Source: Sulfobacillus sp.
Lineage (GTDB): Bacteria; Bacillota; Sulfobacillia; Sulfobacillales; Sulfobacillaceae
Direction of reading: 5' to 3'
Length of the DNA: 64,000 nucleotides
Assembly: GCA_027309085.1 (NCBI GenBank)
Contig: DAIDDL010000021.1
Location: 1-64,000, forward strand
Of this stretch, positions 24,164-53,308 are shown in pieces. Both the position numbers and the translations under genes were made by a program. The notes below the pieces were generated by a model that had not been told where the DNA came from, made no database searches, and saw nothing but the letters and a program-made list of their open reading frames with translations. Within the stretch, counting starts at the first letter, position 1. Every line of letters starts with the position of its first letter.

Positions 24164-24507
24164 GCCATACTCCACGGAAATTCTAACCACCGGGGGCAGC
24201 AAACCGTCGAGTACGGACGTCATATTCCAACCATGGTGGAGATTGCCGAAGAGGGTGACTTGGACTAAAAAACGGGAAATTCCAACCTCAAATTGCACTT
24301 AGCCATCATTGTTTGGTGGCGGGTCAGATTCTGTATAGCTATTGTACCAGGGTTCCGTACCGACTCTATAGATCCTTGTCCAAAGGCTAAAAAGCACCAG
24401 AGGCAGTCAATAGGTGGTCATGGATTTCGCTGTGAGTACGTACAGGGTTGTGCTCATGGTGTCAGTATTCTATGCTATCGATAAAGACAAGATGATTGGA
24501 GGACAGA
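24164..24507. other. Gene-free stretch between the Tn3 remnant and the helicase gene
   Basis: No reading frame with a ribosome site or protein-like content is seen. The left part is probably eroded transposon sequence. The right part holds the putative promoter and ribosome site of the helicase-nuclease gene. Confidence 0.4.
24448..24476 (+). promoter_or_regulatory. Possible promoter of the helicase-nuclease gene
   Basis: TTGTGC (24448-24453) and TATGCT (24471-24476) are 17 bases apart, and lie 32 bases before the ATG. Both boxes match the consensus only partly, so this is a weak prediction. Confidence 0.3.
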
Positions 24508-27021
24508 ATGAACATCTTCGAGAAAAAGCTTGGGCAAGGTAATATCCCATCGTTGTCCGTCCATCCGGTGGAGCTGTTCCATTCCCTATTGCATCAAGAG
24601 GGCTATGAATATCTAAGAGGTGTTCAGGAGGAAATTCTTAGCCACTGGCATGCCAACCGCCAAACTCGCGATGTGGTTGGCAAGATGAATACCGGTGCGG
24701 GGAAGACCCTTACAGGGTTATTGATGTTGTACTCCAAACTCATTGAGGGTTATGGCCCTGCTTTGTATGTGTGCCCGGATAACCAACTTGTCGACCAAGT
24801 TATCGATCAAGCCCATAACTATGGGATCCCAGCATGTGTTTTCGATGCTAGTGGAGATTATCCATCTGAGTTCCTGAACAAGCAGTCCGTGTTAGTTTGC
24901 AATTTTGATAAGCTCTTCAATGGTAAATCTATCTTTGTACGAGATAACATTCACCTTGGATCTGTACTACTTGACGATGCTCACACTGGCGTCAGGCGCG
25001 TCAGACAAAATGCGACAATTACGATTCCCCACAGTCATCCGTTGTTTAAGCGGCTACTTTTTCTCTTTCAGGAGGACTTAGAGTACCAGGCTCCGGGTAC
25101 GTTCGCTCGCGTTTCCGACGAGGATCCATCGCCGAGAGTTTTGATGCGCGTTCCTTATTGGGCATGGGTGTCCAAGCATGACCATGTCGTCCGTATGATT
25201 AACGAGTATCGTACCGACGATGTCATTGATTTTGCATGGCAATTGATAGCTGATGATTTACTACAGTGTGATTGTATTTTGTCATCCAAAGAACTCGAAA
25301 TTGCCCCCATTCACGTACCGTATCACCTTAACCCGCCGTTTAATGAGGCAAAACACCGATTCGTTTTATCTGCGACGTTTGAGGATAACTCTGACTTGTT
25401 AAAGGACTTGGGGATAAGCAGTAATAGCGCTCTCAATGCATTGGTGCCTAAGGACCGCAAGGATATTGGCGAACGGCTTATATTAGCCCCCAGTCGCTTT
25501 GACCCTGTTCTCAACGACGAAGTCGTAAGAAATCTGTTGGCAGAGTATACCCGCTCGCATAAGGTCAACACTGTTGTTCTTGTTCCTTCGCGCTTCCAAG
25601 CGGACAAATGGCGCAAATTAGGCGCTGTGATAGTGGACAAGACTAACATAGTAGACGCTCTAGCCACGTTGAAGCGTGCCCAAGGTAATTTAATGGTTTT
25701 TGTAAACCGCTACGATGGTGTAGATTTACCGGGCGATATGTGCCGAATTTTGGTTCTTGATGGTCGGCCTTCTGATCACTCTCTCAGAGACCGATATTTA
25801 AATTCAGTTCTAGCAGATTCTTCGACCTTAAACGCCAAACTTGCTCAAACCATAGAACAAGGGCTAGGACGTGCTGTACGGTCGGGAAGTGATTATTCCG
25901 TGGTTTTCATTCTCGGAGCCGAGTTGGTCAGATTCCTTGGCGTGCATAGTAACTATCAATACTTCGCACCTGTGACGGCTTCACAACTATCTCTGGGACT
26001 TCAACTGCTCGATGGGGAAGACCGTTCAGACACGGCTCAAACCATTGTGGACGTAGTAGGGCTGTGCCTATCGAGAGATGTTAGTTGGAGAAAATATCAT
26101 CAAAACGCCATTACAAGTGTAAACCAAAATGTAAGCACAAGTAGAGATCTGTCTAACCTAGATACCGCGAAAGCGGAGGCCAAAGCCATCCAACTGTATA
26201 GACAACGCAATTATGAAGCAGCCAGTCAACAGATCGTCTCGCTCATTGATGAAAGGAAAAGCGAATTGTCGGACCGAGAATTGGGATGGTATTATCAATT
26301 CGCCGCGCAACTACTATTTCCAGGCAATCAGGTTCGTTCAAACGACCTGCAAATAAAGGCGGCTGAAACCACCACAGGGCTGTTCCATCCACCCCATGGA
26401 CCTGTCTTTACGCGGATTACTCGGCCGGGCGTTCAAAGCGCAATAATTCGTCGGCAAGTAGCAGAATTTGAGCGGCCCCAGGATGTGTCGGTGTATTTAG
26501 AGAGTATTTTAATTGACCTCCATTATAACCCAGATATTCCGTCGGAGTATTTTGAATCCAACTTAGCGAATGTCGGTCGGTTCCTGGGCTTCGGCGCCCA
26601 GGAACCGGAGCGCGAGCTTGGCAAGGGTCCAGATGTGCTCTGGTGCATGACTGATGGGCATTATCTTATACTTGAAGCTAAATCCCGGGCCACTCACGAT
26701 AAGATTTCCAAAGCGAATCTAGCGCAGCTTTACCATTCGGAGCAATGGTTTCAAGAGCATTACGGAACCGACACTAAATACACATTAGTCACGCTTCAGC
26801 CTCCGAGTTCAAAGGAGGATGATGTGACGGTAAGCGAACGGGTACGGGTACTGGATCAGAAGGGTTTGGAAGATTTGCGTGTAAACCTGCGTGGTTTAGT
26901 GCGAGCCTTGGGAACTAAGCAACCGGCGGCGCATACCGAAACGGAAATACAACGGTTGATTATTTTTCACAATTTATCGGCGGAGCTATTTAGAAAAAGA
27001 TATTTGAAGCAGATTCGATGA
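24508..27021 (+). CDS. Superfamily 2 helicase with C-terminal PD-(D/E)XK-like nuclease domain
   Basis: This 837-residue protein has a DEAD/DEAH-type motor: Walker A GKMNTGAGKT (residues 58-67), motif II LLDDAHTG (154-161), and a second RecA-like domain with FVNRYDGVDLPGDMCRILVL and QTIEQGLGRAVRSG as motif VI. A helical middle part follows. Near residues 708-726, KGPDVLWCMTDGHYLILEAK holds a D...ExK pattern of PD-(D/E)XK nucleases. Helicase plus nuclease in one chain is typical of defence proteins that track and cut foreign DNA. The ATG at 24508 follows TTGGAGG. The gene stands alone between Tn3 remnants, and its base composition is more AT-rich than the conjugation genes, so it was acquired separately. 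Confidence 0.8.
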   Translation: MNIFEKKLGQGNIPSLSVHPVELFHSLLHQEGYEYLRGVQEEILSHWHANRQTRDVVGKMNTGAGKTLTGLLMLYSKLIEGYGPALYVCPDNQLVDQVIDQAHNYGIPACVFDASGDYPSEFLNKQSVLVCNFDKLFNGKSIFVRDNIHLGSVLLDDAHTGVRRVRQNATITIPHSHPLFKRLLFLFQEDLEYQAPGTFARVSDEDPSPRVLMRVPYWAWVSKHDHVVRMINEYRTDDVIDFAWQLIADDLLQCDCILSSKELEIAPIHVPYHLNPPFNEAKHRFVLSATFEDNSDLLKDLGISSNSALNALVPKDRKDIGERLILAPSRFDPVLNDEVVRNLLAEYTRSHKVNTVVLVPSRFQADKWRKLGAVIVDKTNIVDALATLKRAQGNLMVFVNRYDGVDLPGDMCRILVLDGRPSDHSLRDRYLNSVLADSSTLNAKLAQTIEQGLGRAVRSGSDYSVVFILGAELVRFLGVHSNYQYFAPVTASQLSLGLQLLDGEDRSDTAQTIVDVVGLCLSRDVSWRKYHQNAITSVNQNVSTSRDLSNLDTAKAEAKAIQLYRQRNYEAASQQIVSLIDERKSELSDRELGWYYQFAAQLLFPGNQVRSNDLQIKAAETTTGLFHPPHGPVFTRITRPGVQSAIIRRQVAEFERPQDVSVYLESILIDLHYNPDIPSEYFESNLANVGRFLGFGAQEPERELGKGPDVLWCMTDGHYLILEAKSRATHDKISKANLAQLYHSEQWFQEHYGTDTKYTLVTLQPPSSKEDDVTVSERVRVLDQKGLEDLRVNLRGLVRALGTKQPAAHTETEIQRLIIFHNLSAELFRKRYLKQIR

Positions 27022-27438: not shown

Positions 27439-28001
27439 GTGACGGGGCAACGGGTGGGTTACGCGCGGGTGTCGTCGGTCGATCAAAATTCCACACGCTA
27501 GTTGGAAGGGATTGTGGTGGATCGGACGTTCACCGACAAGGCATCCGGCAAGGATACGGAGCGCCCGCAACTGCCGGCGCTTGAGGCCTACGTTCGGGAC
27601 GGTGACACGGTGGTCGTGCACAGCATGGACCGCAATCTCGATGATCTCCGGAAGCTCGTACAGACATTGACGCAGCGGGGCGGCCGCATCGAATTCGTAA
27701 AAGAACAGTTGACCTTTACCGGGCAAGACTCCCCGATGGCCACGCTCTTGTTGTCGGTCATGGGGGCCTTTGCCGAATTTGAACGATCCTTGATTCGAGA
27801 TCGCCAACGGGACGGCGTGGCCTTAGCCAAACAACGGGGGGCCTATCGCGGCCGACAAAAACGCTGGGGCCCGAAGACGTTGCCGAGCTCCATCAACGGG
27901 CGGCCGCCGGAGAACCGAAGACACGGGTGGCCAAGCGATTCGGGATTGGCCGTACGGCCGTTGATGAATATTTGCAGAGGGCTGAGAAGACTCGCGCTTG
28001 A
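27439..28001 (+). pseudogene. Broken Tn3-type serine resolvase (tnpR)
   Basis: The frame starts at GTG with QRVGYARVSSVDQNSTR, the catalytic serine block of resolvases. A TAG at 27499-27501 then replaces the Gln usual in R-Q-L-E-G. The frame continues as LEGIVVDRTFTDKASGKDTE, VVVHSMDRNLDDLRKLVQTL and PMATLLLSVMGAFAEFERSL, all standard. Near 27855-27866 the frame shifts: the helix-turn-helix end (PEDVAELHQRAAAGEPKTRV, then RFGIGRTAVDEYLQRAEK) is read in another phase. With one stop and one frameshift, the gene cannot make a full resolvase. Confidence 0.85.
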
Positions 28002-28033
28002 AGCGCCGCACGACACAATTTGAACAAAGGATG

Positions 28034-28295: not shown

Positions 28296-28328
28296 CTTTG
28301 ATTGACACAGAGTTTAGGAGGCACTGAA

Positions 28329-29336
28329 ATGGCTGACCCCTTGGTGATCGATAGACCCGACAGTATCTCTGAATCCTTAGTATCGCTTCTTGATTCTTTC
28401 CCAGGGCCACTGGCTGATTTAATCCGGGCGTCCGATCAACGCGCCATCCCGATGTTAGCTAAAGATGCCAAGGCGACCGCATTAGTCGAGAACCTCGTTC
28501 AGTCTTTACCGACCTATCACGATCTCTATCTAGGGGACAGCCGTCAGGTGCTGGCGCAGTTCCCGAGTAATAGCGTTCATCTCATTGTGACATCGCCCCC
28601 ATACTGGAATCTTAAGGAATATCCCAAGTCCGAAGGCCAAATGGGCGCAATTGAGGAATTTGATGAGTTCCTTGTGCAATTGGCCAAGGTCTGGGAGCAC
28701 GCTTACCGCCTCTTGGTTCCTGGGGGACGTATGGTGGTTGTCGTCGGTGACGTTTTAGTACCGCGGCGTCGCTACGGTCGGCATATCGTATTCCCCCTGC
28801 ATGCCGCCATCCAAGAACAGTGTCGACGAATTGGGTTTGATAATCTCGCCCCGATTATTTGGTATAAAATCGGGAACGCGCAGTTCGAAGCCTCCGGCAA
28901 TAGCGGAAGGTTTTTGGGGAAACCCTACGAGCCCAACGGCGTCGTGAAAAACGATATTGAATATATCCTATTTCAGCGTAAGCCGGGCGGATATCGTCAG
29001 CCTACACAGGCAGCGCGCGTACTGTCGATGCTGCCGGATACGCTGCACCGCGAATGTTTTCAACAGATTTGGACTCTCACCGGAGCCTCGACAAAAAACC
29101 ATCCCGCTCCGTATCCCTTAACGCTCGTCAACCGGTTAATCCGCATGTTTTCCTTTGTGGGCGACACGGTATTGGACCCTTTTATGGGGACAGGAACAAC
29201 AAACCTCGGCGCGGCACGCTGGGGCCGGAACAGTATCGGGGTAGATATCACGCCTTCTTACGTCGACATGTCCCACACACGCTTGCGAAGTCAGAATCCC
29301 CCGCCTACAATTGAGATACACGATGTAAGGAGCTAA
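28329..29336 (+). CDS. DNA methyltransferase of a type II system (amino-methyltransferase, beta-class order)
   Basis: This 335-residue enzyme has the catalytic motif IVTSPPYWNLKEYP near residue 86 and, further on, the cofactor motif VLDPFMGTGTTNLGAARWG near residue 280. Catalytic motif before cofactor motif is the beta-class order of N4-cytosine or N6-adenine methyltransferases; SPPY with Trp is commoner among N4-cytosine enzymes. TTAGGAGG sets the start at 28329. It stands four bases before the XhoI-like endonuclease gene, so the two form one restriction-modification operon, and it should protect the same site. Confidence 0.9.
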   Translation: MADPLVIDRPDSISESLVSLLDSFPGPLADLIRASDQRAIPMLAKDAKATALVENLVQSLPTYHDLYLGDSRQVLAQFPSNSVHLIVTSPPYWNLKEYPKSEGQMGAIEEFDEFLVQLAKVWEHAYRLLVPGGRMVVVVGDVLVPRRRYGRHIVFPLHAAIQEQCRRIGFDNLAPIIWYKIGNAQFEASGNSGRFLGKPYEPNGVVKNDIEYILFQRKPGGYRQPTQAARVLSMLPDTLHRECFQQIWTLTGASTKNHPAPYPLTLVNRLIRMFSFVGDTVLDPFMGTGTTNLGAARWGRNSIGVDITPSYVDMSHTRLRSQNPPPTIEIHDVRS

Positions 29337-29340
29337 AGAC

Positions 29341-30069
29341 ATGGTGCCAGAAGACCTTTTGTTTAGGGATGCAGTGCACTGGTTTTGGACAACACGCGAC
29401 CATCAATTATCTAGTCAACGGGATCGAGGAGCGATGGATGCTGGCCAGAGAAGCGCCGTCACGGGCGGCAAGCAGATGGACGGCTTCGCCCGAACGATCG
29501 CCCAGAGATTGGTCGACATGGACGTTCCCCCGCAGGCTATTTTTTTTGACAAGCAACTAGAGCTGCCGGGATTCTACCGTTCCACGAAGCAGTGGGATTT
29601 AATTGTCATTACCGATGGCGTGCTTCGCGCGGCCATCGAACTCAAGTCACAAGTCGGCCCTTCCTTCGGCAACAACTTTAATAATCGCACGGAAGAGGCA
29701 TTAGGGACGGCCACGGACATTTGGACCGCCTATCGTGAGGGTGCTTTCCAAACCGAACCGACCCCGTGGCTGGGGTACCTCCTTTTGCTAGAAGATTGCC
29801 CGCAGTCACGGGCACCAGTCAAGGTAGCCGAGCCACACTTCAAAGTATTTCCGGAGTTCATCAACGCCTCCTATGCCACAAGATATGACCTATTTTGTCG
29901 CAAGCTGGTTAGAGAGCGCCAATATAATGCCGCCTGTTTTCTCTTGGCCGACCGAACCAAGTGGGACGAGGACCAAAATTATGTCGCTCCGGCCGAGGAC
30001 TTGGGACCCATCCGATTCTTCGACAGTCTTAGTCGTAGCGTCAGACCGCTCGACAGTTACGGCGAGTAG
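29341..30069 (+). CDS. Type II restriction endonuclease, XhoI/PaeR7I-like
   Basis: This 242-residue protein has QRSAVTGGKQMDGFARTIAQ near residue 36, a stretch I associate with the XhoI/PaeR7I family, and the nuclease core WDLIVITDG (D86) then AAIELKSQVGPSFGNNFNNR with E100 and K102, a PD-(D/E)XK pattern. Members cut CTCGAG. It directly follows the methyltransferase. The specificity is family-based; CTCGAG does occur in this window (for example 53259-53264 and 62736-62741), so a working enzyme would need the methyltransferase. The recognised pair differs from PaeR7I in having a beta-class methyltransferase. Confidence 0.8.
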   Translation: MVPEDLLFRDAVHWFWTTRDHQLSSQRDRGAMDAGQRSAVTGGKQMDGFARTIAQRLVDMDVPPQAIFFDKQLELPGFYRSTKQWDLIVITDGVLRAAIELKSQVGPSFGNNFNNRTEEALGTATDIWTAYREGAFQTEPTPWLGYLLLLEDCPQSRAPVKVAEPHFKVFPEFINASYATRYDLFCRKLVRERQYNAACFLLADRTKWDEDQNYVAPAEDLGPIRFFDSLSRSVRPLDSYGE

Positions 30070-30136
30070 AGAATCTAGCGCCACGATTGATTTTCGTGAA
30101 CTATCGATTTATGGAAAGGTGATTACTTCGGAAAAC

Positions 30137-30667
30137 ATGATCTTTGTTGGCGGAATTCACGGTGTGGGAAAGACAACTGTTTGCCAAGTCATTCATGACG
30201 AATTCCAGATAGATCACTATTCAGCAAGTGCGTTGATTGCTAACGCGAAAAGAGAAGAGTTCGGGGTAGCGAAGCAGGTTGCTGACATTGAAACAAATCA
30301 GGACTTTCTGACGCGTGTTTTGAAAGACATGCAAATTGGTTCACGATGGTTTTTGCTAGACGGACATTTTTGTCTCATCGATACAAGAAGCCAAATTACC
30401 CGCGTTCCAGAGGACACCTTTCGTCAATTGGCCCCAAGGGGCATTATAACCATGCAGGATACAGTAAATAAAATTAAAGGAAGATTACTCAACAGGGATA
30501 ATTTCGTCTATGACGAACCATTTCTTGAGCAGTTTCAAGATGAAGAGCTTCGTTATGCTGTTGAACTGGCAAACATGATGCACATTCCCCACGTAGTTAT
30601 CCATACTAACGAACCGCAAATACGTAAACTGGAAGAGTTTCTTCGGATGGTGGGAGCAATTGTTTGA
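30137..30667 (+). CDS. P-loop nucleotide kinase-like protein
   Basis: This 176-residue protein begins MIFVGGIHGVGKTTVCQVIH, a P-loop (GxxGxGKT) followed by a kinase-like body: RWFLLDGHFCLID near residue 75 resembles the second acidic strand of small-molecule or nucleotide kinases. A C-terminal VVIHTNEPQIRKLEEFL is typical of P-loop kinases that end by sensing substrate. The ATG at 30137 has only a weak ribosome site; the frame also extends upstream over the restriction gene, which is rejected. It lies 30 bases before a PIN-GNAT-ASCH-like gene, in DNA visibly richer in A and T than the restriction genes, so the two may be a unit. Substrate unknown. Confidence 0.6.
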   Translation: MIFVGGIHGVGKTTVCQVIHDEFQIDHYSASALIANAKREEFGVAKQVADIETNQDFLTRVLKDMQIGSRWFLLDGHFCLIDTRSQITRVPEDTFRQLAPRGIITMQDTVNKIKGRLLNRDNFVYDEPFLEQFQDEELRYAVELANMMHIPHVVIHTNEPQIRKLEEFLRMVGAIV

Positions 30668-30697
30668 CACCGTCTGATCCACCTAGGAGGTACAAAT

Positions 30698-32212
30698 GTG
30701 CGAGTGCTTCTAGACACAAATATCGTAATTCACAGAGAGAATAGCAAAACGATGCGTGATGATATTGGCATCTTATTCAGATGGCTGGATAATCTCCATT
30801 ACAACAAGTGCATTCATCCATTAACTGTTGAAGAAATAAACAAGTATCAGGGCGAAGTAGTGAGACGGTCATTTAACATAAAACTTGAGAACTACAATAT
30901 TTTGAAGACCACAGCGCCCTGGATGGGACCTATCGTAGAAGTTTCTAAGCAAGAAGATACGAATGATAATGATCGAATTGACTCGCGCCTTCTCAATGAG
31001 GTCTTACAGGACCGGGTAGATATTCTCATAACTGAAGACAAAAAAATTCGCAGAAAGGCTGCGTTGTTAGACATTGAACACCGGATATTCAGTATTGATG
31101 CGTTTCTGGAGAAGGTAACAGCAGAAAATCCTCTGTTGGCCGATTATAATGTTCTTTCGGTCAAGAAAGAGTTCTTTGGAAACATCAACGTGGATGACGA
31201 ATTCTTCGATAGCTTTAGGGACGATTATCCGGGTTTTAACCACTGGTTCAACAGAAAATCTGATGAGGTCGCATACATTTCTCGGCTAAATAACACGATT
31301 TCCGCCTTTCTTTATGTGAAATTAGAGGATGAAGCTGAGGACTATTCAGACATCAGTCCTGTGTTTTCACGTAAACGGAGACTTAAGATCGGAACTTTCA
31401 AGGTAACGTTGAATGGTTTTAAACTTGGTGAGCGGTTTCTCAAGATCGTGTTCGATAATGCCATGAGATACCATGTAGACGAGATTTATGTAACGATTTT
31501 TGACCGAACACTCGAACAGCAGCGGTTGATTAGCTTATTGGAGGACTTCGGATTTAGTCATCATGGACACAAGGAAGAAGAACTGGTATTAGTGCGTTCG
31601 ATGGCCAATGTTAGAAATCTTGATAATCCCAAATTCATGTACCCATATATACCGATTAACGGGAATAACATATTTTTCGTTTCGATATACCCGCAGTACC
31701 ATACCGAACTGTTCCCGGACTCGATCTTGAATACTGAGTCTCCAGACGACTTCGTGGAACACACCCCTTTTCGAAATGCCATTAGCAAGGTTTATATTTC
31801 ACGAGCATACGAACGTGATTTGAAGTCTGGTGATGTACTGTTGTTCTACAGAACGGGAGATCGTGACCCTAAAGTATACTCAGGAGTTGTCACGACCATC
31901 GGAATCGTGGAGAATATAGTTACGAACATACGTTCCGAGGAAGAGTTCATCGGTCTGTGCAGAAAACGCAGCGTGTTCAGTGACGACGAGTTACGGGAGC
32001 GCTGGAATTATAGGGCGGGAAACAGACCTTTTATCGTTAATTTCTTGTACGCATATTCGCTTCCGAAGCGCCCTAATCTACATAGGCTTATCGAGCTAGG
32101 CATCATTAGTGATCCACATTCGCTTCCGAGAGGATTTGGGAGAATGAATTCAGAACAGTTACTAACAGTCTTTAGGGAGGCACAGGCGGATGAAGGTCTT
32201 ATTATCCATTAA
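30698..32212 (+). CDS. PIN nuclease - GNAT acetyltransferase - ASCH/EVE-like fusion protein
   Basis: This 504-residue protein opens RVLLDTNIVIHRENSKTM, the start of PIN RNases, with further acidic residues in VEEINKYQ and VDILITEDKKIRRKA, which fit the metal site. Residues about 150-310 resemble a GNAT acetyltransferase: a strand-helix pattern with LKIGTFKVTLNGFKLGERFL and YVTIFDRTLEQQRLISLLED then FGFSHHG. The last 180 residues include ISRAYERDLKSGDVLLFYRT, YSGVVTTIGIVENIV and IGLCRKRSVFS, an ASCH/EVE-like RNA-binding fold. The GTG at 30698 follows CTAGGAGG. The next gene, an ASCH protein, overlaps its end. Together they suggest RNA cleavage or modification under a ligand-sensing domain. Confidence 0.75.
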   Translation: MRVLLDTNIVIHRENSKTMRDDIGILFRWLDNLHYNKCIHPLTVEEINKYQGEVVRRSFNIKLENYNILKTTAPWMGPIVEVSKQEDTNDNDRIDSRLLNEVLQDRVDILITEDKKIRRKAALLDIEHRIFSIDAFLEKVTAENPLLADYNVLSVKKEFFGNINVDDEFFDSFRDDYPGFNHWFNRKSDEVAYISRLNNTISAFLYVKLEDEAEDYSDISPVFSRKRRLKIGTFKVTLNGFKLGERFLKIVFDNAMRYHVDEIYVTIFDRTLEQQRLISLLEDFGFSHHGHKEEELVLVRSMANVRNLDNPKFMYPYIPINGNNIFFVSIYPQYHTELFPDSILNTESPDDFVEHTPFRNAISKVYISRAYERDLKSGDVLLFYRTGDRDPKVYSGVVTTIGIVENIVTNIRSEEEFIGLCRKRSVFSDDELRERWNYRAGNRPFIVNFLYAYSLPKRPNLHRLIELGIISDPHSLPRGFGRMNSEQLLTVFREAQADEGLIIH

Positions 32213-32558
32213 ACCAGAATTTGCGCACGAAATCTTTTCAGGGACGAAGCGGTACGAGTATCGCAAAACGATATTCCGGCAAAAAGTCACGACGGTAGTG
32301 GTTTATGCCTCGTCACCAGTGAGCAAGGTCCTAGGCGAGTTCGAGATTGACGAAATATTGCATGATGAAATTGAAGCATTGTGGGAAACCACGAAGAGCT
32401 ATTCTGGCATCACTAAAGACTTTTTCTTCTCCTACTTTAGATCAAGGGAATCTGGTTACGCTATTAAGATAAAGAGCTGCGAGTTATATGACGATCCTAT
32501 GGATTTGCAGTCAGTGTATGGATCGAATCCCCCGCAGTCATTCGCCTATGTAGAATAG
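32190..32558 (+). CDS. ASCH-domain protein
   Basis: This 122-residue protein begins KVLLSIKPEFAHEIFSGTKR then YEYRKTIF, the hallmark of ASCH domains (SxKPxx...I.G.K..E.R). These bind RNA or modified nucleosides. The strand TTVVVYASSPVSKVLGEFEI also fits. It starts inside the C terminus of the PIN-GNAT fusion and overlaps it by 23 bases, so it is translationally coupled. It may be the antitoxin or regulator of the PIN fusion, or its substrate-recognition partner. After its stop the sequence changes to GC-rich, structured DNA. Confidence 0.8.
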   Translation: MKVLLSIKPEFAHEIFSGTKRYEYRKTIFRQKVTTVVVYASSPVSKVLGEFEIDEILHDEIEALWETTKSYSGITKDFFFSYFRSRESGYAIKIKSCELYDDPMDLQSVYGSNPPQSFAYVE

Positions 32559-33059
32559 ACTATTATTTTCCGTGACAACAAGAAACAAGTGGGTCATTAC
32601 ACCACACTTCCCTTTGCCCGCACGCCATCAGGCGTGTGGGTGTTCGGTATTTCGGAATGACGCTGGGCCGCCCAGCGAGACACTATCCATCACCCATGGT
32701 GGCTTGGCCGCCCGAACTCCCCATACCGAGTGGCCAAGGGGTGCAGTTCCACTAAGTCGGCACCTCGGACAACTCGGCGTATCTAACTGGGGGCCGTAAC
32801 GTCCCACCGCCCCGTCGGGCCGGGCTATCCCCTAATCCCGCTAAGGACCGAGGGCTGATGAGAGCCGCGAAGACCACGGCGTGCTCCGGCAACCACACAT
32901 CCAGCCGGCCATGCAGACAATTCTGAAGCCATGGGCCATCGTCCCGCAGACGTTCCCGGGCTATGTTTCATTCCGCCCTTGCCGAAAGGCGCCAGAGCAT
33001 GACGCGTCCTCCAAATTGTGATATTATGACCATAAAAGGACAGTGCCGGGAGGGAACTC
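32559..33059. other. Gene-free, highly structured region
   Basis: About 500 bases lack a supported gene. The left half is dominated by nested hairpins (see the RNA candidate), and the right half holds the likely promoter and ribosome site (GGGAGGG) of the next gene. Confidence 0.6.
32617..32835 (+). ncRNA. Candidate structured RNA, possibly a stand-alone IscB omega RNA (HEARO-like)
   Basis: The segment folds into many strong stems: CCCGCACGCC (32617-32626) with GGCGTGTGGG (32631-32640); CGCTGGG (32661-32667) with CCCAGCG (32671-32677); CTTGGCC (32703-32709) with GGCCAAG (32732-32738); and further GC-rich pairs near 32805-32822. The density of stems, the length of about 200 bases and the conserved-looking sections (ACTAAGTCGGCACCTCGGAC) resemble HEARO/omega RNAs that guide IscB nucleases. 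No IscB gene is next to it. Stand-alone omega RNAs are known from other bacteria. Strand is assumed from the fold and could be reversed. Confidence 0.4.
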
Positions 33060-33680: not shown

Positions 33681-34721
33681 GTGATAGGTGATCGCATTCG
33701 ATTGGCACGAGACTTTGAAGGCCTAACGCAAACAGAACTGGCGGCACGTCTGGGCATACAGCAAAGCACCCTGGCGTATTTGGAAAGCGGACGGCACCGC
33801 CCGTCCCCGCCGATTATCACGGCCCTAGCGCGGGTGACCGACTTTCCGGCCCCGTTCTTTTGTGACGTGCCGTTGGATGCGTTTCCGCAAGGCTCATTGG
33901 CCTTTCGCCGCCGGAAACAAACGTCTGCTGCTGAAGTGACTCGGGCCTATACCGTGGCACGCCTCGGCTGGGAGTTGACCATTCGGATGTTGCATCGTGT
34001 CAAGCGGTGGCCCATTCGGGTGCCGATTATGAACGAAGAGGAGCCGGAGGCGGCCGCCGCCGTGACACGCTCAGCACTGGGCGCCTCCCCCGATGAACCG
34101 CTCGGTCACCTGCTCGGGAAAATTGAAAGTTTAGGCGTGGCGGTCTTTGAGATTGATCGGGATCTTCACGATTTGGATGGGTTTTCCTTATGGGCCGGCT
34201 TGCCGACTCCGCGGCCCGTGGTGGTGGTGAATGCGGCAACCCCGGGCGACCGGCAACGTTGGACGTTGGCCCATGAGCTCGGCCATCTCGTGCTGCATGG
34301 CGCAATCCGGGGTCGGGTAGATGAGGTCGAGGCGGACGCAGACGCCTTTGCTGCTGAACTGCTATTACCAGAATCGGTGATGCGCAATGAATTCGTGGCG
34401 CCAGTGACCCTGTCGCATGTGGCAGAGCTGAAGGCCCGGTGGGGCGTTTCGATGGCCGGGCTCATCCGCCGGGCCCATGACTTGGGGATCATTACCGATC
34501 GACGGAAAAAGGATTTGTTTATTCAACTGGGCAAGCATGGCTGGCGCACGGCGGAGCCGGTGCCGATTGCGCGGGAACGGTCACAGACTCTCGAACAATT
34601 GAGCCGTGCGATTTACGGAGCCTCGGCGACGGCGGAGGGGGTGCTCACGCAAGAAGGGTTCCCCCGGAGCCTGGCCGCCGCGCTCATTATGGAATCTCCA
34701 CGGTTGAGGATTGTGCGGTAA
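33681..34721 (+). CDS. XRE helix-turn-helix plus ImmA/IrrE metallopeptidase regulator
   Basis: This 346-residue protein has an XRE helix-turn-helix (RLARDFEGLTQTELAARLGI, then STLAYLESGRHRPS, residues 6-50) and a C-terminal ImmA/IrrE peptidase with WTLAHELGHLVLHG near residue 197. The HExxH and the downstream acidic ADADAFAAELLLPE form the zinc site. Such proteins repress an operon and cleave a repressor on signal. It starts at GTG, eight bases after AAGGGTG. It stands 90 bases before the phospholipase D-ATPase gene and may control it in response to DNA damage or phage. Confidence 0.85.
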   Translation: MIGDRIRLARDFEGLTQTELAARLGIQQSTLAYLESGRHRPSPPIITALARVTDFPAPFFCDVPLDAFPQGSLAFRRRKQTSAAEVTRAYTVARLGWELTIRMLHRVKRWPIRVPIMNEEEPEAAAAVTRSALGASPDEPLGHLLGKIESLGVAVFEIDRDLHDLDGFSLWAGLPTPRPVVVVNAATPGDRQRWTLAHELGHLVLHGAIRGRVDEVEADADAFAAELLLPESVMRNEFVAPVTLSHVAELKARWGVSMAGLIRRAHDLGIITDRRKKDLFIQLGKHGWRTAEPVPIARERSQTLEQLSRAIYGASATAEGVLTQEGFPRSLAAALIMESPRLRIVR

Positions 34722-34814
34722 CGTGCGAGACGGCGCCCGGGCGAGAGTGTGGCTGGGCGAAGCGCCTGCGTGTCGGGGGAGCTTGGACCATCATAATGAA
34801 ATGAGGGACCCGTG

Positions 34815-36812
34815 ATGCCAAAGAAATCATCGCCGCAAGGCACGCTCCCGTTGTTCGCGGAGACGCCGCCCCCCGCCTTAACCGTGGTGCATGCTCGGTT
34901 TACCGCGGAGGCGGCGGAGTCTCTCTCCGATCTGTTTTCCGGGTTTGATACGCTCCAAGCGCTCACGTATTCGTCGAGTGTCCCCTTGATTGCCTCTATT
35001 TTGCCGTGGTTTCGCCATGTCGATATCGTGTTTGGCTACGAACAAATTGTGCCACAAGATGTACGCCAATTAATTGCGCTGCAGCAGGCCGTGGCGGAAC
35101 AATTGCAAGCTCTGATCAGCGAGTTGGCCCCGCGTCAGCAGGCCTTGGCGCAAGCCTTGCGTGAAGGGACCGTTACGTTTCGGACCCTCACCCATCATGT
35201 GTCTCACAAGAAGACGTTTTTGCTGTCGGGCCCGGATCGACCGTCTCGGGTGATTGTCGGGTCGGCTAATTTGTCCACTCCCGGGCTCAGCGGCCGCCAA
35301 TGGGAGAATCTGATTGTCTTTGACGACGATGGCCCCGCCTTTGCGTACTATTACCGAGATTGGCTTCACGCCGTGGACGCCGCGAGCCCCGTGGCCCCGC
35401 AAGTGTTGCTGGGGCAAGAGGCTCTGGATTTAGAAAACGTTCCTGTTATCCGGCAAGTCATTCAGACGCAAAAGATGGTGGTGGTGGATCACAGGGATAG
35501 CCAAGCCATGGAAGCGGAGGCGACTCGCTCCGTGGTCGTGCGGGCCACGGAGTTGACGGCGTCTTATCGCGATTTACCGTTAATGCCCACGGGAAACGGA
35601 CACACGGTGATCGTTCCCCAGATGGTGCACCAGATCGCGGCCGCCTGGCGCGGCCAACGGGCGGCACAGGCCCCGGACTCTCCCCACGTGCCCCAGTTCG
35701 ACGTGAGCTGGACGGGTCCGCCGCGGTGCCGATTCAATGGCCAGGAATGGTCTTTAACCCCGGACGCAGAGGCGGTGCGGCAGGACGTGCCGTGGCTGAC
35801 GCAATATTTCGAGGGATTTAGTCGGTTTATCGGCAATGATCCGGGGGTGCTGCAGCGTCAATATTATGCCCTGTTGAATTGGCTCCTGTTTGCGCCGATC
35901 TTACCGCTATTGCGTGTCCAGGCTATGGCCCAAGGACACCACGGGTATCTCTATCCGATGACGGCCATTGTGTATGGCAAGAGCAACGCCGGCAAAACCG
36001 ATTTTCTCAAAACCGTTTCACGGCTCATGTTTGGCATGGATGTCCTGGTGCCTGCGCTGGAGTTCTCGAAATCCAAATATCGGGGTTGGGCGGAACGGGC
36101 GCAAGCGTTTCCCTTGATAGTGGACGACATTCAAAACCGGCGGTTTCACGACCATGCCATCGAATTGATTAAAAGTACTGATTATTTCCGGACTCTCCCT
36201 GCTCCCTGCATGGTCTTTAGCGCGAATACCGACATTGAGGGCCTGCCCAGTGAGGTAACCAAACGTGCATATGTGGTGCCGATTACTGCGAGCATTCCGG
36301 TTCCTGCGGCGGCCAAGGACCGGTTTACCGCACGCGTGCAAAGCGGTCTCAGTACGGCCCTGTACCGCGCCTACTGTGCCCAGGTGTTGCCTGCTGCCAG
36401 GACACTGGCCGCGGCATGGGATCAGCCCGAGCCGCCTGATCCGTACCAAATGGCGTCGTCTACCGTACTCTATAACCTGATCGGGGAGGCGCTCGATGGC
36501 CACCTCCCGCCTTGGTGTCAGATCCTGACGTTGGATACCTATCTGACCTCGCACGATGAGACCATTCGTGATACGTTGCACCGCTTGTGGACAACGCGGC
36601 CCGATTTGTTTGTGATCCGGCGACCTGCCAATCACCTCATCCTCACAGCCAGTCAGCCCGCTGAATTAAAGACATGGAAGACCAACATTCCTGATTACTT
36701 GATTGTTCAACAAGCGGGCTTGTCCTTGATTTTACACTTGGCGGAAACCGAAACCTTTTTGGGGCGGCGGTTCGTGCGACCGTTCTTGCATCGGGTGTGG
36801 GGGCGACATTGA
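34815..36812 (+). CDS. Phospholipase D-like nuclease fused to a SF3/AAA-like ATPase
   Basis: This 665-residue protein has a single HKD-type site near residues 130-155 (HHVSHKKTFLL, then VGSANLSTPGLSGRQWEN). The second part has a Walker A, VYGKSNAGKTDFLK near residue 389, a Walker B-like LIVDDIQNR near residue 434, and a sensor-like CMVFSANTDIEGLP near residue 470, resembling superfamily 3 or AAA ATPases. A single HKD half-site suggests dimerisation. A nuclease with an ATP-driven motor fits a defence effector that unwinds or translocates DNA before cutting. It has ATG 34815, five bases after AGGGAC; a DinG-like helicase follows. Confidence 0.75.
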   Translation: MPKKSSPQGTLPLFAETPPPALTVVHARFTAEAAESLSDLFSGFDTLQALTYSSSVPLIASILPWFRHVDIVFGYEQIVPQDVRQLIALQQAVAEQLQALISELAPRQQALAQALREGTVTFRTLTHHVSHKKTFLLSGPDRPSRVIVGSANLSTPGLSGRQWENLIVFDDDGPAFAYYYRDWLHAVDAASPVAPQVLLGQEALDLENVPVIRQVIQTQKMVVVDHRDSQAMEAEATRSVVVRATELTASYRDLPLMPTGNGHTVIVPQMVHQIAAAWRGQRAAQAPDSPHVPQFDVSWTGPPRCRFNGQEWSLTPDAEAVRQDVPWLTQYFEGFSRFIGNDPGVLQRQYYALLNWLLFAPILPLLRVQAMAQGHHGYLYPMTAIVYGKSNAGKTDFLKTVSRLMFGMDVLVPALEFSKSKYRGWAERAQAFPLIVDDIQNRRFHDHAIELIKSTDYFRTLPAPCMVFSANTDIEGLPSEVTKRAYVVPITASIPVPAAAKDRFTARVQSGLSTALYRAYCAQVLPAARTLAAAWDQPEPPDPYQMASSTVLYNLIGEALDGHLPPWCQILTLDTYLTSHDETIRDTLHRLWTTRPDLFVIRRPANHLILTASQPAELKTWKTNIPDYLIVQQAGLSLILHLAETETFLGRRFVRPFLHRVWGRH

Positions 36813-36958: not shown

Positions 36959-37138
36959 ATGGGGCAGGCGTATCCGACACGGGTATTAGTGCCTTCAGTG
37001 TCCAAGCAATTCTTCTGGGTAGCGGATGGCCTCGTCCGACATTTTCTATTCGTATCGGGAGCAGCAGGAAAGGTGGATATGGTTGCACAGTGGTCAAAAA
37101 AAACAAGAAAACCCAGCCGAAAAAGAGTTCACCAGTAA
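36959..37138 (+). CDS. Small hypothetical protein overlapping the DinG-like gene
   Basis: AAGGGAGGG five bases before ATG 36959 opens a 59-residue frame: GQAYPTRVLVPSVSKQFFWV is followed by a basic end (KKTRKPSRKRVHQ). It overlaps the first 49 bases of the helicase gene in another frame, so its translation could control entry of ribosomes at the weak GTG of the helicase. It is too short for the usual length cut-off. No match is known. Confidence 0.45.
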   Translation: MGQAYPTRVLVPSVSKQFFWVADGLVRHFLFVSGAAGKVDMVAQWSKKTRKPSRKRVHQ

Positions 37139-39384
37139 CGAAGCCGTCGCGGGATGTCACGCTCATTTTGGATGACAATACGGCCACGTGTAACGTCTGT
37201 GGCAGTCCGTGGATGATCTATGCGGTATGGGCCATCGCCCCAACAGGTGAGCGACAGCAGGAGGGTCAATTTTGTAAGACACACTTGCCGCCTGATGACC
37301 AACCATCCCATGCACGCCGTGCCAGTGGGCGCGCTTCACGCCGTGCCACAGGGACCGTTGCACAAACTGAGGAATGGTTCACAAAAAAGCTACCCTCGCG
37401 CGGCCTCCCACTGCGTCCAGCTCAACAAGACATGGCCTTAGATATTGCGCGTGTCCTCGACATGACGATTCCTAATCGAGCGGTTGCGGTGTTAGCCGAC
37501 GCAGGGGTTGGTGTGGGGAAGAGCTTTGCCTACTTGATTCCCATTCTGTTGCAATCGCGCGGGGTCTACGTTATCTCCACATCGACCTTGGTGCTCCAAA
37601 ATCAGTTGCTGCGCGATATAGACCGTTTGGCACGCTGGATGAGTCACACAGGACGCTCACTGACGGTATCCGTCATGAAAGGCGAAATGCAATATGTCTG
37701 TCGACAACGCCTCCGCGGGCTCATGAAACTCAACGAAACAGATAGCGAGGGACAAGCCTACGGGCACCAATTGGGTCAGCGCCAGACTTTGAGGAACATC
37801 GATAAGGCTCTTGCTCACATACTGGCCCACCCGGCGACATGGAGCCCTTGGGACGCTCAAACGGTGCAAGCCCTCTCCATTCCTGCCGACTTAATTCCCC
37901 GGGTCCGTGTCCAACGTCACGGCGTTCCGTCATCCTCAAGCTGTGCTCATTGCGAATCGAAGGATAGTTGCGGATTTCAAGCCATGCGCCGTGCCGGCCA
38001 TCGCCAAACCCCTGGGATTTTAAACGTTTTGATTGTCAATCATGGCTTGCTGTTGGAAGATCTCGGTCGGCGAGCCGCCCAAGGCAAGGGCCTCTGGGAG
38101 ACGCCCAAAGCCATCGTCATCGATGAAGCGCACGACCTGGACAACAAAGCGCGTGACTATTTCTCCACACGATTAGATTTCCGTGAGGTGGACTCTGTCC
38201 TCCAGACGCTCAGGTCGGTACTCCAACATGTCCCCTCTGGCATGATCCGTGCGGTGTCGCGGGAGGCCCGTGCCACTGCCGCACAGGTGGCCCGCGCATG
38301 GGCATCCGTGGGGGGCATAGGAGACAGAGCCCCATTTCCGACGCGCTCTCAAGATCCCGCCTTTTACCGGGCGCTAGCGAATCTGCAAACCACCCTCGCT
38401 CGGTTTCTCGACCAGGTCCATGTGCAGATGGCCATGGGGGGACGCAGAGACACTCACGCGATTCTCCATGCCGTAGAGACGGTCGAGGGGTGGGCCGCAA
38501 CTTTGCAAGCCGTCAGCCGCCATGATGTCATGACGGCGCTCAGTCTAGAACAGCAGGCCATTACGGCGATCCCCGCGGATCTGTCGCAGGGCCTGCAACG
38601 TTTGTGGAACACGGAGCGTGTCCCTTTGGTATTAACTTCCGCTACCTTGTTGGCCGGGCGCACATTCAAGGAAACGGCCCGTGACTGGGGACTGCATCAC
38701 CATTCCCTCATCAACGTGACGGCCCCGAGTCCCTTTCCGTACTCCACGAGCCTCTTAATTTATGTGCAACCGCAAGGCCGCACGCCTCCAAAAGTCGACG
38801 ACCCGGCCGAACTGGCCTATTACCGCACGTTTTTGTTTCCCACCTTGGCACAATTATTGCACACGTCCCAGGGGCGCGCCCTAATTTTATCAACCAGCCG
38901 TCGCCGGGCGCGAGACATCTGGACGGCCTTGCGGGGTGATTTCGATTTCTCGTTTCCTATATTGTGGCAGGACGAAGCCGATGTCCTCAATCGATTTGCA
39001 GCGGATACGGCTAGTGTTCTCGTGGGTACCGGAAAATTGTTTACGGGCTTGGACGTTCCCGGCGACTCCTTATCCCTGGTAGTGATCGACCGCATCCCCA
39101 ATCCCGTCCCCACGGACCCGCTGTGGCAAGCCAAAAGGGCTCTGGCGCAGCAAGCGGGGCTCACCGCTGCTGAGGCCCGGTGGGCATGGGCGCGCAGCTT
39201 GCTCATTCAAGGGGCTGGTCGGCTGATTCGATCCATGGACGATCGGGGTGTACTCGCCTTGTTGGATCCGAGAGCAGCGAATGACCCCGTGGTGAAGCAA
39301 GCTCTACCAGCTGGTCGGTGGACGACAGAAGTCGGCGACATTGACGACTTTTTCAGCGCAAAGACATATCATTCCCCGGCATGA
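37090..39384 (+). CDS. DinG/XPD-like DNA helicase with iron-sulphur cysteines
   Basis: This 764-residue helicase begins with a basic tail and a small zinc site (CNVCG near residue 36, then QFCKTH). Walker A is VLADAGVGVGKSFAYLIPIL near residue 140. The iron-sulphur cysteines are visible as YVCRQRL (about residue 202), CAHCESKDSC (284-293). Motif II is AIVIDEAHDLD near residue 340; motif VI is IQGAGRLIRSMDD near residue 706. DinG helicases unwind 5'-3', including R-loops. The start GTG at 37090 has a weak site and follows AAAGGTGG. It is the third gene of the phospholipase D-ATPase locus and probably belongs to the same defence system. Confidence 0.85.
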   Translation: MVKKNKKTQPKKSSPVTKPSRDVTLILDDNTATCNVCGSPWMIYAVWAIAPTGERQQEGQFCKTHLPPDDQPSHARRASGRASRRATGTVAQTEEWFTKKLPSRGLPLRPAQQDMALDIARVLDMTIPNRAVAVLADAGVGVGKSFAYLIPILLQSRGVYVISTSTLVLQNQLLRDIDRLARWMSHTGRSLTVSVMKGEMQYVCRQRLRGLMKLNETDSEGQAYGHQLGQRQTLRNIDKALAHILAHPATWSPWDAQTVQALSIPADLIPRVRVQRHGVPSSSSCAHCESKDSCGFQAMRRAGHRQTPGILNVLIVNHGLLLEDLGRRAAQGKGLWETPKAIVIDEAHDLDNKARDYFSTRLDFREVDSVLQTLRSVLQHVPSGMIRAVSREARATAAQVARAWASVGGIGDRAPFPTRSQDPAFYRALANLQTTLARFLDQVHVQMAMGGRRDTHAILHAVETVEGWAATLQAVSRHDVMTALSLEQQAITAIPADLSQGLQRLWNTERVPLVLTSATLLAGRTFKETARDWGLHHHSLINVTAPSPFPYSTSLLIYVQPQGRTPPKVDDPAELAYYRTFLFPTLAQLLHTSQGRALILSTSRRRARDIWTALRGDFDFSFPILWQDEADVLNRFAADTASVLVGTGKLFTGLDVPGDSLSLVVIDRIPNPVPTDPLWQAKRALAQQAGLTAAEARWAWARSLLIQGAGRLIRSMDDRGVLALLDPRAANDPVVKQALPAGRWTTEVGDIDDFFSAKTYHSPA

Positions 39385-39615: not shown

Positions 39616-40584
39616 GTGAATAGTAGTTTGTTAAAAAGATTGTTCAAAACCATTTCAAATGGAGACATGGACTCGATACAGAAGATTGCATGGGCAGTGG
39701 TTGAGGATGAGTCGAAGAAAGGGCACACACAGGTTTCCAAGGAACTCGCTGAGATTCTGGGTAACAGCACAGAGTCACCAAAGAGTTCCGTACTTCCATT
39801 GGCGAGACTTCCAAAGAGCGCTAGAACGCAGATCCCGCTGGCTAATACCATTCCGTTTGAGGAACTGCGATACCATATGGTGCTTCCTGCTCCTGTGGAG
39901 GAGGAATTTACGCGCATTGAACGGGAATACGCCGCTCGCGAGCGGTTGGCTCTACATGGACTAACACCGGCGAGGAAAATTTTACTGTACGGCCCACCCG
40001 GTTGTGGAAAAAGCATGGGGGCCGAGAGGCTAGCGTGGAACGCCGGATTGCAGCTAATCAAGGTTCGCTTTGACGCCATCGTGTCTTCGTATCTAGGAGA
40101 GACGGCAATAAACTTACGTTCCATTTTCGATGCGATTCATCAAACACCCTGTCTGTTCTTTATCGACGAGGCAGATTCACTGGCGAGAACTCGTACGGCA
40201 GTGCAGGAAGTGGGAGAGGTTAAGCGGATCGTTAATACTTTTCTTCAATTATTGGATGAATACAAGGCTCCGGGACTTCTCGTGGCTGCAACAAATCTAG
40301 ATTCTGACCTTGATCCGGCCGTCTGGCGACGGTTTGATGCCGTGATTGAAGTGCCTCGACCTGGACGTTTCGAGATTAAAGGGATTATTGAACAGAGTCT
40401 CGGCGCTATCCCCTATCAATTCGCAAATTGGGAGGCCATAACGGCGCGATGCAACGGTCTTTCCGCTGCCCAAGTGGTGACGTGTTCGCAGCGTGCGGCT
40501 AAACGTATGATCCTTGATGGAGGAAAGTCTCTAACGGAGAACGATCTACTGAATGAAATAGATAAGATTCGGAGGGACAGATAA
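39616..40584 (+). CDS. AAA ATPase partner of a subtilisin-like protease
   Basis: This 322-residue protein has a helical N terminus and one AAA module: Walker A ILLYGPPGCGKSMGAERLAW near residue 117, Walker B CLFFIDEADSLAR near residue 177, sensor-like LLVAATNLDSDLDPAVWRRF near residue 222. It resembles FtsH-like and Bcs1-like AAA modules more than helicases. It starts at GTG after GAGAGGGGGG. The subtilisin-like gene begins two bases after its stop, so the products act together: the ATPase may unfold or deliver proteins to the protease, or sense phage. This AAA-S8 pair is a known pattern in defence islands. Confidence 0.85.
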   Translation: MNSSLLKRLFKTISNGDMDSIQKIAWAVVEDESKKGHTQVSKELAEILGNSTESPKSSVLPLARLPKSARTQIPLANTIPFEELRYHMVLPAPVEEEFTRIEREYAARERLALHGLTPARKILLYGPPGCGKSMGAERLAWNAGLQLIKVRFDAIVSSYLGETAINLRSIFDAIHQTPCLFFIDEADSLARTRTAVQEVGEVKRIVNTFLQLLDEYKAPGLLVAATNLDSDLDPAVWRRFDAVIEVPRPGRFEIKGIIEQSLGAIPYQFANWEAITARCNGLSAAQVVTCSQRAAKRMILDGGKSLTENDLLNEIDKIRRDR

Positions 40585-40585
40585 G

Positions 40586-51337: not shown

Positions 51338-52840
51338 TTAGGGTGTTGCCGCCGGATCGGCTTGTCCGGCGTAGCGGATGGTCACCTCCCCGGTCACAAT
51401 ATCAATACGGTGAATGTACTGCTTTAGCAATTCCCGGCGTTCGTGAAGGGTGGCGGCCTGCTGAAAAGCGTGGGGAGCGGCCGCTAACTCTTCCGCAAGT
51501 CGGTAAGACTCTTCCGCAGAGGGAACCGGATGCTGTTGCACGGCGAGTTCCCGGAGGCGCTCTTCCAGCCGGGCCTGTTCTCGGTCGACACGGGCCTGCG
51601 CTTCTTTAAATTGCGGAATGGTGAAGGCTCCCTGTAATAAGGCATCCTCCGCCCGGGCTCGCATGGCTTGGAACTCTTCAAGTCGGCGTGTGACGCGCTG
51701 CTGTTCCCGCGTCGTGTCCGCACGGTTGTGATCTTGCGCGATTTTCCACTCGGCCCACGCTTGAACATCTGAGGCCGCGGGATGGGTCATCCGGGTGAGC
51801 CAATCCTGCACAACAGCCGCTTCAATGGCTTCCACTGCGACGGTATTAGGTTGGCACAATCCGTTCATATGATAGCTCCGGCAGGAATAGCGGGGTTTCC
51901 GATTGCCGCCGCCCTTAATCACCACCATGGTTTTTCCGCAGTAGCCGCAATAGACGAGTCCACTGAGGAGGTACGGTGAGTTCGCTTGGCGTCCACTGTG
52001 CTGTCCCCGCGCTTGGAGAATACGTTGTGCGGCGTCCCACGTTTCCCGATCGACAATCGCGGGATGGGCGTTGGCAACTACCATGGGATCGGCGCGATGC
52101 CGCTTATGGGTGACGCCGGTACGTTCTTTAAAGAACTCCAAGGCTCCGTGTTGCAAATCCCCGACATTAGCGGGTTTGCGCAAGAGTCGCAGAATTTCTG
52201 GCGCCCCCCACTGGCTTGTACCGGTCTGGGTGGGAATCCCTTGGTGGTTGAGTCGCTTCGCAATTTCGCGTCCCCCCACACCTTCGTGGACGTACCACGC
52301 ATAGATTTGCCGGACCACCTCGGCTTGCTCGGGATAGGGTTCCAGCTTATCACCCTGAAACCGGAAACCATAGGGAGGCCGTCCCCCGTGGTGTTTGCCT
52401 TGGCGGGCGCGTTCTTCCATGCCGCCCTTGACCTTGCGGGCCAACTGCTTGCGGAAATAATGGGCGAACACAGAAAGAATCATCATTTTGAGTTCGCCAT
52501 CGGGGGTGGTCAGGTCGAGATCGTCGGCGACCGCCGCGAATCGGCATCCTACCCGTTGCAAGTCTTCTAAGAACAGCAACGTGGAGACCATGTCACGGGC
52601 CAGCCGATCGAGTTCGTTGACGACTACCACCCGAATGTGTTCTTCTTCCACCCGGCGCAAAATGTCTTGTAATTCCCGGTAGTTGGATCCGCCGGATTGC
52701 ACATATTCCACCACATCGACGATTTCCCAGTCGCGCTGCACGCAATAGTCCGTGATACGCTGCCGCTGATGGGGAATGGAAAACCGGTCCCCTGTCGCTT
52801 GTTCCTGAGTCGAGACGCGAGCAACGCCTAAGGCCCGCAT
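51338..52840 (-). CDS. Large serine recombinase (integrase of the element)
   Basis: This 500-residue minus-strand enzyme has the catalytic N terminus RALGVARVSTQEQATGDRFS with the active serine in ARVST, then VVVNELDRLARDMVSTLLFL. A recombinase domain follows with GKHHGGRPPYGFRF, and a zinc ribbon GLVYCGYCGKTMVVIKG ... CRSYHMNGLC. A coiled coil near residues 370-440 completes the layout typical of serine integrases that insert and excise ICEs and phages at att sites. ATG 52840 is preceded by AAGGAGG. It stands near the right end of the element, as integrases usually do, so attR should be within a few hundred bases to the right. Confidence 0.92.
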   Translation of the reverse strand: MRALGVARVSTQEQATGDRFSIPHQRQRITDYCVQRDWEIVDVVEYVQSGGSNYRELQDILRRVEEEHIRVVVVNELDRLARDMVSTLLFLEDLQRVGCRFAAVADDLDLTTPDGELKMMILSVFAHYFRKQLARKVKGGMEERARQGKHHGGRPPYGFRFQGDKLEPYPEQAEVVRQIYAWYVHEGVGGREIAKRLNHQGIPTQTGTSQWGAPEILRLLRKPANVGDLQHGALEFFKERTGVTHKRHRADPMVVANAHPAIVDRETWDAAQRILQARGQHSGRQANSPYLLSGLVYCGYCGKTMVVIKGGGNRKPRYSCRSYHMNGLCQPNTVAVEAIEAAVVQDWLTRMTHPAASDVQAWAEWKIAQDHNRADTTREQQRVTRRLEEFQAMRARAEDALLQGAFTIPQFKEAQARVDREQARLEERLRELAVQQHPVPSAEESYRLAEELAAAPHAFQQAATLHERRELLKQYIHRIDIVTGEVTIRYAGQADPAATP

Positions 52841-52921
52841 GTTTTGAACCTCCTTGCACGAACCGTGACCTAATTCCGGCCCGTGTCTCATATCGTACAG
52901 GGAAAGGAGTGTGATGGGGAC

Positions 52922-53086: not shown

Positions 53087-53308
53087 TATGGAACTAGTCT
53101 GCCAGAGTATTTCGGTTCTGTCATTACTAGATTGGGAATTGCACCATACCTTTGCAGAGTATACCCAGCATCCGCTGTGCTATTTCCGCCTAGAATTTGT
53201 GTGTTGACAACGTCATCATGCTCGATTACCATTGTCTTCAACAGAGCCCACCACGCCTCTCGAGAGCGAAGCGCACCAGGGTGGGACTTTTCATACAATC
53301 GTGGTGAA

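Follow-up and report, generated by a model that had tools for sequence, protein, structure and literature searches.

What is a cassette that joins a small kinase, a fusion of RNase, acetyltransferase and RNA-reader regions and a separate ASCH protein likely to do, and does it represent a new kind of system? We addressed these questions for a locus of Sulfobacillus sp. (assembly GCA_027309085.1, contig DAIDDL010000021.1), analysed in a stretch of 64,000 nucleotides that is called the window here. The cassette consists of three open reading frames, all on the forward strand (Table 1); the kinase and fusion genes are separated by 30 nt, and the fusion and ASCH genes overlap by 23 nt. The GC content is 42% at 30-32 kb against 57-60% over most of the window, and thus the AT-rich island is real. 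An initial annotation, made from the sequence alone, had noted three tightly spaced genes in AT-rich DNA, and both the coordinates and the base composition bear this out. In a promoter and terminator scan, the number of sites was no greater than in shuffled sequence. The gene set recurs, beyond what chance would give, in unrelated genomes, plasmids and viruses, dozens in all.

Table 1. Coordinates of the cassette, its domains and the neighbouring genes of the defence island in the window
Feature	Position	Strand	Evidence or remark
PDC-S28 helicase	24496-27021		Defence-island neighbour
N6/N4 methyltransferase and XhoI-like REase	28302-30069		RM pair directly upstream of the cassette
AAA_17 P-loop kinase, archaeal/Odin-type adenylate kinase fold	30137-30667	+	Pfam AAA_17, E 9.6e-15
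PIN-GNAT-EVE fusion (PDC-M11A), putative toxin	30698-32212	+	PADLOC PDC-M11A, E 1.7e-210; model folds
PIN domain, VapC-type RNase fold	30698-31102	+	Residues 1-135; VIA to VapC 3zvk, 4chg, 6ifc
GNAT domain, Naa50/Naa60-like fold	31148-31612	+	Residues 151-305
PUA-superfamily (EVE/ASCH-like) reader domain	31658-32191	+	About residues 321-498
Overlap of fusion 3' end and ASCH start, 23 nt	32190-32212	+	SD-like AGGGAGG upstream, inside the fusion gene
ASCH protein (PDC-M11B), putative antitoxin	32190-32558	+	PADLOC PDC-M11B, E 4e-52
RmrA-like HTH-IrrE protein (HTH-peptidase)	33681-34721		Defence-island neighbour
DinG-like helicase	37090-39384		Defence-island neighbour
IetA/IetS	39616-43066		Defence-island neighbour
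Serine recombinase	51338-52891	-	Island
Abi_2 protein	53132-54202		Defence-island neighbour

The fusion gene starts with GTG after a strong Shine-Dalgarno sequence (AGGAGG), and the PDC-M11A profile of PADLOC covers its product end to end (residues 1-503 of 504). When the single protein was searched, Pfam gave only a weak PIN_3 match (E 9e-4), and GNAT and EVE were detected by neither Pfam nor NCBIfam; these two regions were recognised by fold comparison and by Pfam matches in other members of the family (EVE in two). An AlphaFold model built from a 50-sequence input (mean pLDDT 88) has three domains, namely PIN, GNAT and PUA/ASCH/EVE. VIA-align compared the PIN domain with VapC toxins at a Z of about 12.5 (12.7 for 3zvk). 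The fusion has the PIN fold in common with VapC of VapBC, as well as the four acidic residues, D6, E46 (E or D), D92 (E in one relative) and D114, which are kept across the PIN-bearing relatives. Unlike VapC, the PIN domain in the window is joined to a GNAT and a reader domain, and no VapB-type antitoxin (small, DNA-binding) was seen beside the fusion, where the neighbouring open reading frames are the kinase and ASCH genes.

The GNAT domain resembles Naa60 (5icv; VIA Z 13.8, rmsd 2.9 over 149) and was matched by Foldseek to PaiA (1tiq, E 5e-5), with K230, T233 and G244 conserved. Its acetyl-CoA (pyrophosphate) loop, GFKLGERFLK, keeps an invariant G244, and the first Gly is replaced by K, R, L or V. 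Since this loop is non-canonical, acetylation may be weak or absent, and the use of acetyl-CoA, as judged from these residues, is plausible but not assured. The reader domain matches both the EVE and the ASCH folds: residues 323-496 align with ZmASCH (5y6b; VIA Z 14.6, rmsd 2.3 over 139), and Foldseek also found the EVE domain of human THYN1 bound to 5mC DNA (5j3e). In a profile comparison, the reader domain matched the family of the partner ASCH protein (E 1.4e-5, probability 80%).

The product of the ASCH gene has a Pfam ASCH match (E 1.5e-4, above the Pfam cutoff) and is homologous to ZmASCH of Zymomonas mobilis (ZMO0922, 5guq; profile E 2.8e-25). Its GxKxxExR motif, Y39, W65, Y82 and P115-Q116-S117 (PQS) are invariant in 42 relatives. 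ZmASCH was reported to cleave ssRNA, and Tyr47, Lys53 and Ser128 contribute to the activity (PMC5615036). Tyr47 and Ser128 correspond to the invariant Y39 and S117, whereas Lys53, which is needed for the ssRNase activity, is not conserved (S45 in the window protein and mostly Gly in relatives). The overlap with the fusion gene is in one frame and measures 23 nt (59 loci), 26 nt (11) or 29 nt (13) in 83 of 90 distinct loci, in a range that spans Methanothermobacter phage psiM100 and E. coli prophages. As exceptions, an ASCH gene fused to an HTH lies upstream in Rhizobium, and the ASCH gene is on the opposite strand in some relatives; thus, the tight coupling of fusion and ASCH is not universal.

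The model of the kinase (pLDDT 91) matches the adenylate kinase of Methanococcus (6pjw; VIA Z 20.4, rmsd 2.0 over 168 residues), and a profile search of the PDB gave archaeal adenylate kinases with E values from 5e-12 to 1e-8. Walker A (GIHGVGKTT) is intact, and its G6, G11 and K12, as well as D75-G76-H77-F78 and the LID arginine R120, are invariant in 34 relatives. With the fold, Walker A and the LID arginine all present, we regard the protein as an archaeal-type adenylate kinase by fold, with putative AMP phosphorylation. Compared by motif, D-G-H-F differs from the D-T-H of archaeal adenylate kinases. Translation may start at an in-frame GTG at 30119, since close relatives read VITSENMIFVGG. 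The kinase matched no PDC-M11 model of PADLOC and is thus an extra third gene relative to PDC-M11. Taken together, Pfam, PADLOC and the folds found in the models of each part agree with the identities given in the initial annotation, that is, a small kinase, a fusion with PIN, GNAT and ASCH/EVE-like regions and a separate, overlapping ASCH gene.

The same annotation knew of no named system with such a set. On this point it does not stand: an undescribed system is ruled out by PDC-M11 of PADLOC, by the operons of Bell, Wolf and Koonin (2020; PMC7641849) and by GenBank record PV340567.1. PDC-M11 is a computational candidate defence system in PADLOC-DB, and both of its core proteins match end to end, adjacent and in equal order. 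Bell et al. described (PIN)-GNAT-EVE fusions that are almost always accompanied by ASCH and frequently by an AAA_17 ATPase, credited the operons to the earlier work of Iyer et al. (2013), and found fusions with PIN close to RM systems and those lacking it in prophages (PMC7641849). They proposed a toxin-antitoxin function and stated that, up to 2020, no module had been put to the test (PMC7641849). The domain set of their operons, including the optional AAA_17 and the RM association, is identical to that of our locus (PMC7641849), in which a GNAT and C-terminal EVE/PUA fusion with N-terminal PIN is accompanied by an adjacent ASCH gene and by an AAA_17 gene 30 nt upstream. The RM neighbour is an XhoI-like type II system in the window and type I in the operons of Bell et al., and otherwise we saw no difference in kind. 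In Escherichia phage PhiR47_2 (PV340567.1), a PIN-less homologue bears the label GevT toxin, and the ASCH protein encoded next to it is called GevA antitoxin. These proteins share 38% (GNAT-EVE) and 51% (ASCH) identity with those of the window, in equal order and with an equal 23-nt overlap, although GevT/GevA has neither a PIN domain nor a kinase and lies on a lambdoid prophage. Our literature search found no publication behind the GevT/GevA label, so that the toxin and antitoxin labels rest on this one GenBank record, and it found no toxicity, phage or RNA data for the family. The locus therefore belongs to the known (PIN)-GNAT-EVE/ASCH family, already described in kind.

We surveyed how constantly the three genes occur together. 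A strong PDC-M11A match (E below 1e-50) was obtained in 13 of the 398 Bacillota species searched, and PDC-M11B adjoins in 13/13, with a partial match on the other strand in one genome (G336). A scan of viral sequences with the single fusion sequence gave no match, and the scan based on the fusion alignment gave 80 GNAT-EVE loci, with ASCH in 80/80 and the kinase in 19/80. Searching viruses with the kinase alignment only gave a set that has some contigs in common with the former one, with GNAT-EVE in 34/34 loci and ASCH in 33/34. In the same 398 Bacillota species, the kinase search hit four genomes, in each case at a GNAT-EVE/ASCH operon, and all six kinase matches on plasmids lie beside the GNAT-EVE/ASCH pair. 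ASCH is thus nearly universal and the kinase is optional yet committed to the operon, where the kinase queries were taken from the GNAT-EVE-linked family and more distant kinases may exist elsewhere. The initial annotation had suggested such a survey, and the lack of co-occurrence elsewhere that it counted against its own idea is clearly not what the survey returned.

Variants of the arrangement were also seen. Eight Bacillota ASCH matches have no full-length GNAT-EVE neighbour, and on a brief look two of the eight have a GNAT-PIN-type fusion. In these two Bacillota (L053:4254-6936 and L057:3248-5841), a protein of 704-719 aa with canonical GNAT and then PIN is followed by an overlapping ASCH gene; the C-terminal part of the protein has no Pfam assignment, and its end in L053 overlaps a weak PDC-M11A match (columns 319-495). 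A second small GNAT gene adjoins the cassette on plasmids of Pseudomonas sp. CIP-10 (L009:6515-7111) and Nitrosophilus labii (L064:3453-3968).

The cassette appears in other genetic surroundings as a block. By blastn, the DNA at 30095-32745 is 90% identical to a contig of a Bacillota MAG (L005), and that at 30112-32554 (+) is 87% identical to Sulfoacidibacillus thermotolerans (L006). The upstream flanks of both are unrelated to that of the window, and by inspection of open reading frames the Sulfoacidibacillus copy lies downstream of seemingly type I RM genes. Because blocks of 87-90% identity are joined to differing upstream flanks in these two relatives, the cassette moves as one unit, and the ends of the matching segments mark its limits. 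The distribution of the family is patchy, and members are present on prophages and plasmids. In Lactobacillus prophage Lj965 (L070:2286-4381), the GNAT-EVE/ASCH pair directly follows phage genes for four tRNAs (Ser, Glu, Tyr and Phe), neighbours that may hint at a tRNA target.

A defence island occupies 24496 to 54202 of the window (Table 1). The association with RM and defence genes expected of PIN-bearing forms was found, with the XhoI-like RM pair upstream and PDC-S28, IetAS and Abi_2 near. An open reading frame of 173 aa (27502-28023), which lies after the PDC-S28 gene and before the RM pair, encodes a serine resolvase N-terminal domain, possibly a mobile-element remnant. Farther downstream, a protein of 666 aa (34812-36812) shows weak similarity to PLD-type nucleases (108-185) as well as a P-loop-like stretch, GKSNAGKTDFL; it gave no PADLOC match.

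The explanation that we favour, and consider rather probable, is that the locus, set in a defence island, functions as a toxin-antitoxin or abortive-infection module. It is based on the PDC-M11 matches, the operon set of Bell et al. (PMC7641849), the GevT/GevA labels and the co-occurrence of the genes, together with the conserved overlap, the block transfer, the folds, the intact PIN acids and the defence-gene surroundings. In such a module, the fusion would bind a probably modified RNA, most likely tRNA, through its C-terminal PUA/EVE domain, and the PIN nuclease, possibly together with GNAT, would damage the bound RNA, so that translation stops. The idea of an RNA reader joined to a nuclease, already put forward in the initial annotation, is reasonable. 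The fusion would be neutralised by the ASCH protein, whose translation is probably coupled to that of the fusion. As a free-standing protein related to the toxin's reader domain, ASCH may either compete with the toxin for its RNA or attach to the toxin, for instance by pairing with that domain. The earlier suggestion that ASCH is a regulator fits the antitoxin label. However, ZmASCH, a homologue of the proposed antitoxin, was itself reported to cleave ssRNA (PMC5615036), and this complicates the role of ASCH. The adenylate-kinase-like protein may be a dedicated but optional accessory, perhaps tuning the system to the nucleotide state.

Another possibility, proposed by Bell et al. (PMC7641849), is that the PIN form is a defence effector and not a self-toxin: phage GNAT-EVE would acetylate modified or charged tRNA for the phage, and host PIN-GNAT-EVE, as an anti-toxin guardian, would cleave the acetylated RNA. 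The viral homologues that we recovered are almost all PIN-less, whereas the copies of the window, L005, L006, L040, L041 and archaea carry PIN, and the locus adjoins RM genes. However, the search patterns bias the set of viral homologues recovered, and PIN-bearing forms also occur in three viral contigs (L072-L074) and in phage psiM100. We found no evidence of GNAT-EVE helping phages, and the copy of PhiR47_2 is labelled as a toxin with its own antitoxin. We consider this proposal unlikely.

A cassette for RNA or nucleotide housekeeping or repair, in which the kinase phosphorylates a nucleotide or an RNA end and ASCH and the fusion process modified RNA without toxicity, would agree with the adenylate kinase type of the first protein and with the ssRNase activity of ZmASCH in vitro (PMC5615036). 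The patchy distribution (13/398 Bacillota species with a strong match), the prophage and plasmid locations, the block transfer and the defence-island setting all argue against such a role, which we regard as quite improbable. We give still less credence to an action of GNAT and EVE on DNA, with base acetylation as a self/non-self mark tied to the adjoining restriction systems, an idea cited by Bell et al. and attributed by them to Iyer et al. 2013 (PMC7641849). The 5mC DNA-binding EVE domain of THYN1 among the fold matches, the XhoI-like RM neighbour and the type I RM-like genes upstream of the L006 copy are in line with it. However, the cassette has different gene neighbours from one copy to another, the inspected phage and plasmid copies show no RM genes nearby, and the usual substrate of VapC-type PIN domains is RNA.

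Returning to the toxin-antitoxin or abortive-infection module, a bolder version would give the kinase a larger part. As every kinase match found adjoins GNAT-EVE, the kinase might be a true third component of a subgroup. By sensing or changing nucleotide pools, or by phosphorylating the target RNA, it would arm or disarm a PIN/GNAT toxin, for which the antidote would be a free-standing cousin of the RNA-reader domain in the toxin itself. This we put forward only as a long shot.

In conclusion, the cassette is real, conserved and well delimited; its gene set had already been predicted in a 2020 publication and is listed as a phage-defence candidate, and the locus does not represent a new type of system. 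The family occurs widely, in bacteria and archaea as well as on prophages and plasmids. To this family, the copy of the window adds a clean three-gene version with sharp limits and two close relatives for comparison, as well as quantified evidence that the kinase and ASCH belong to the system, and it is thus a handy start for bench tests.
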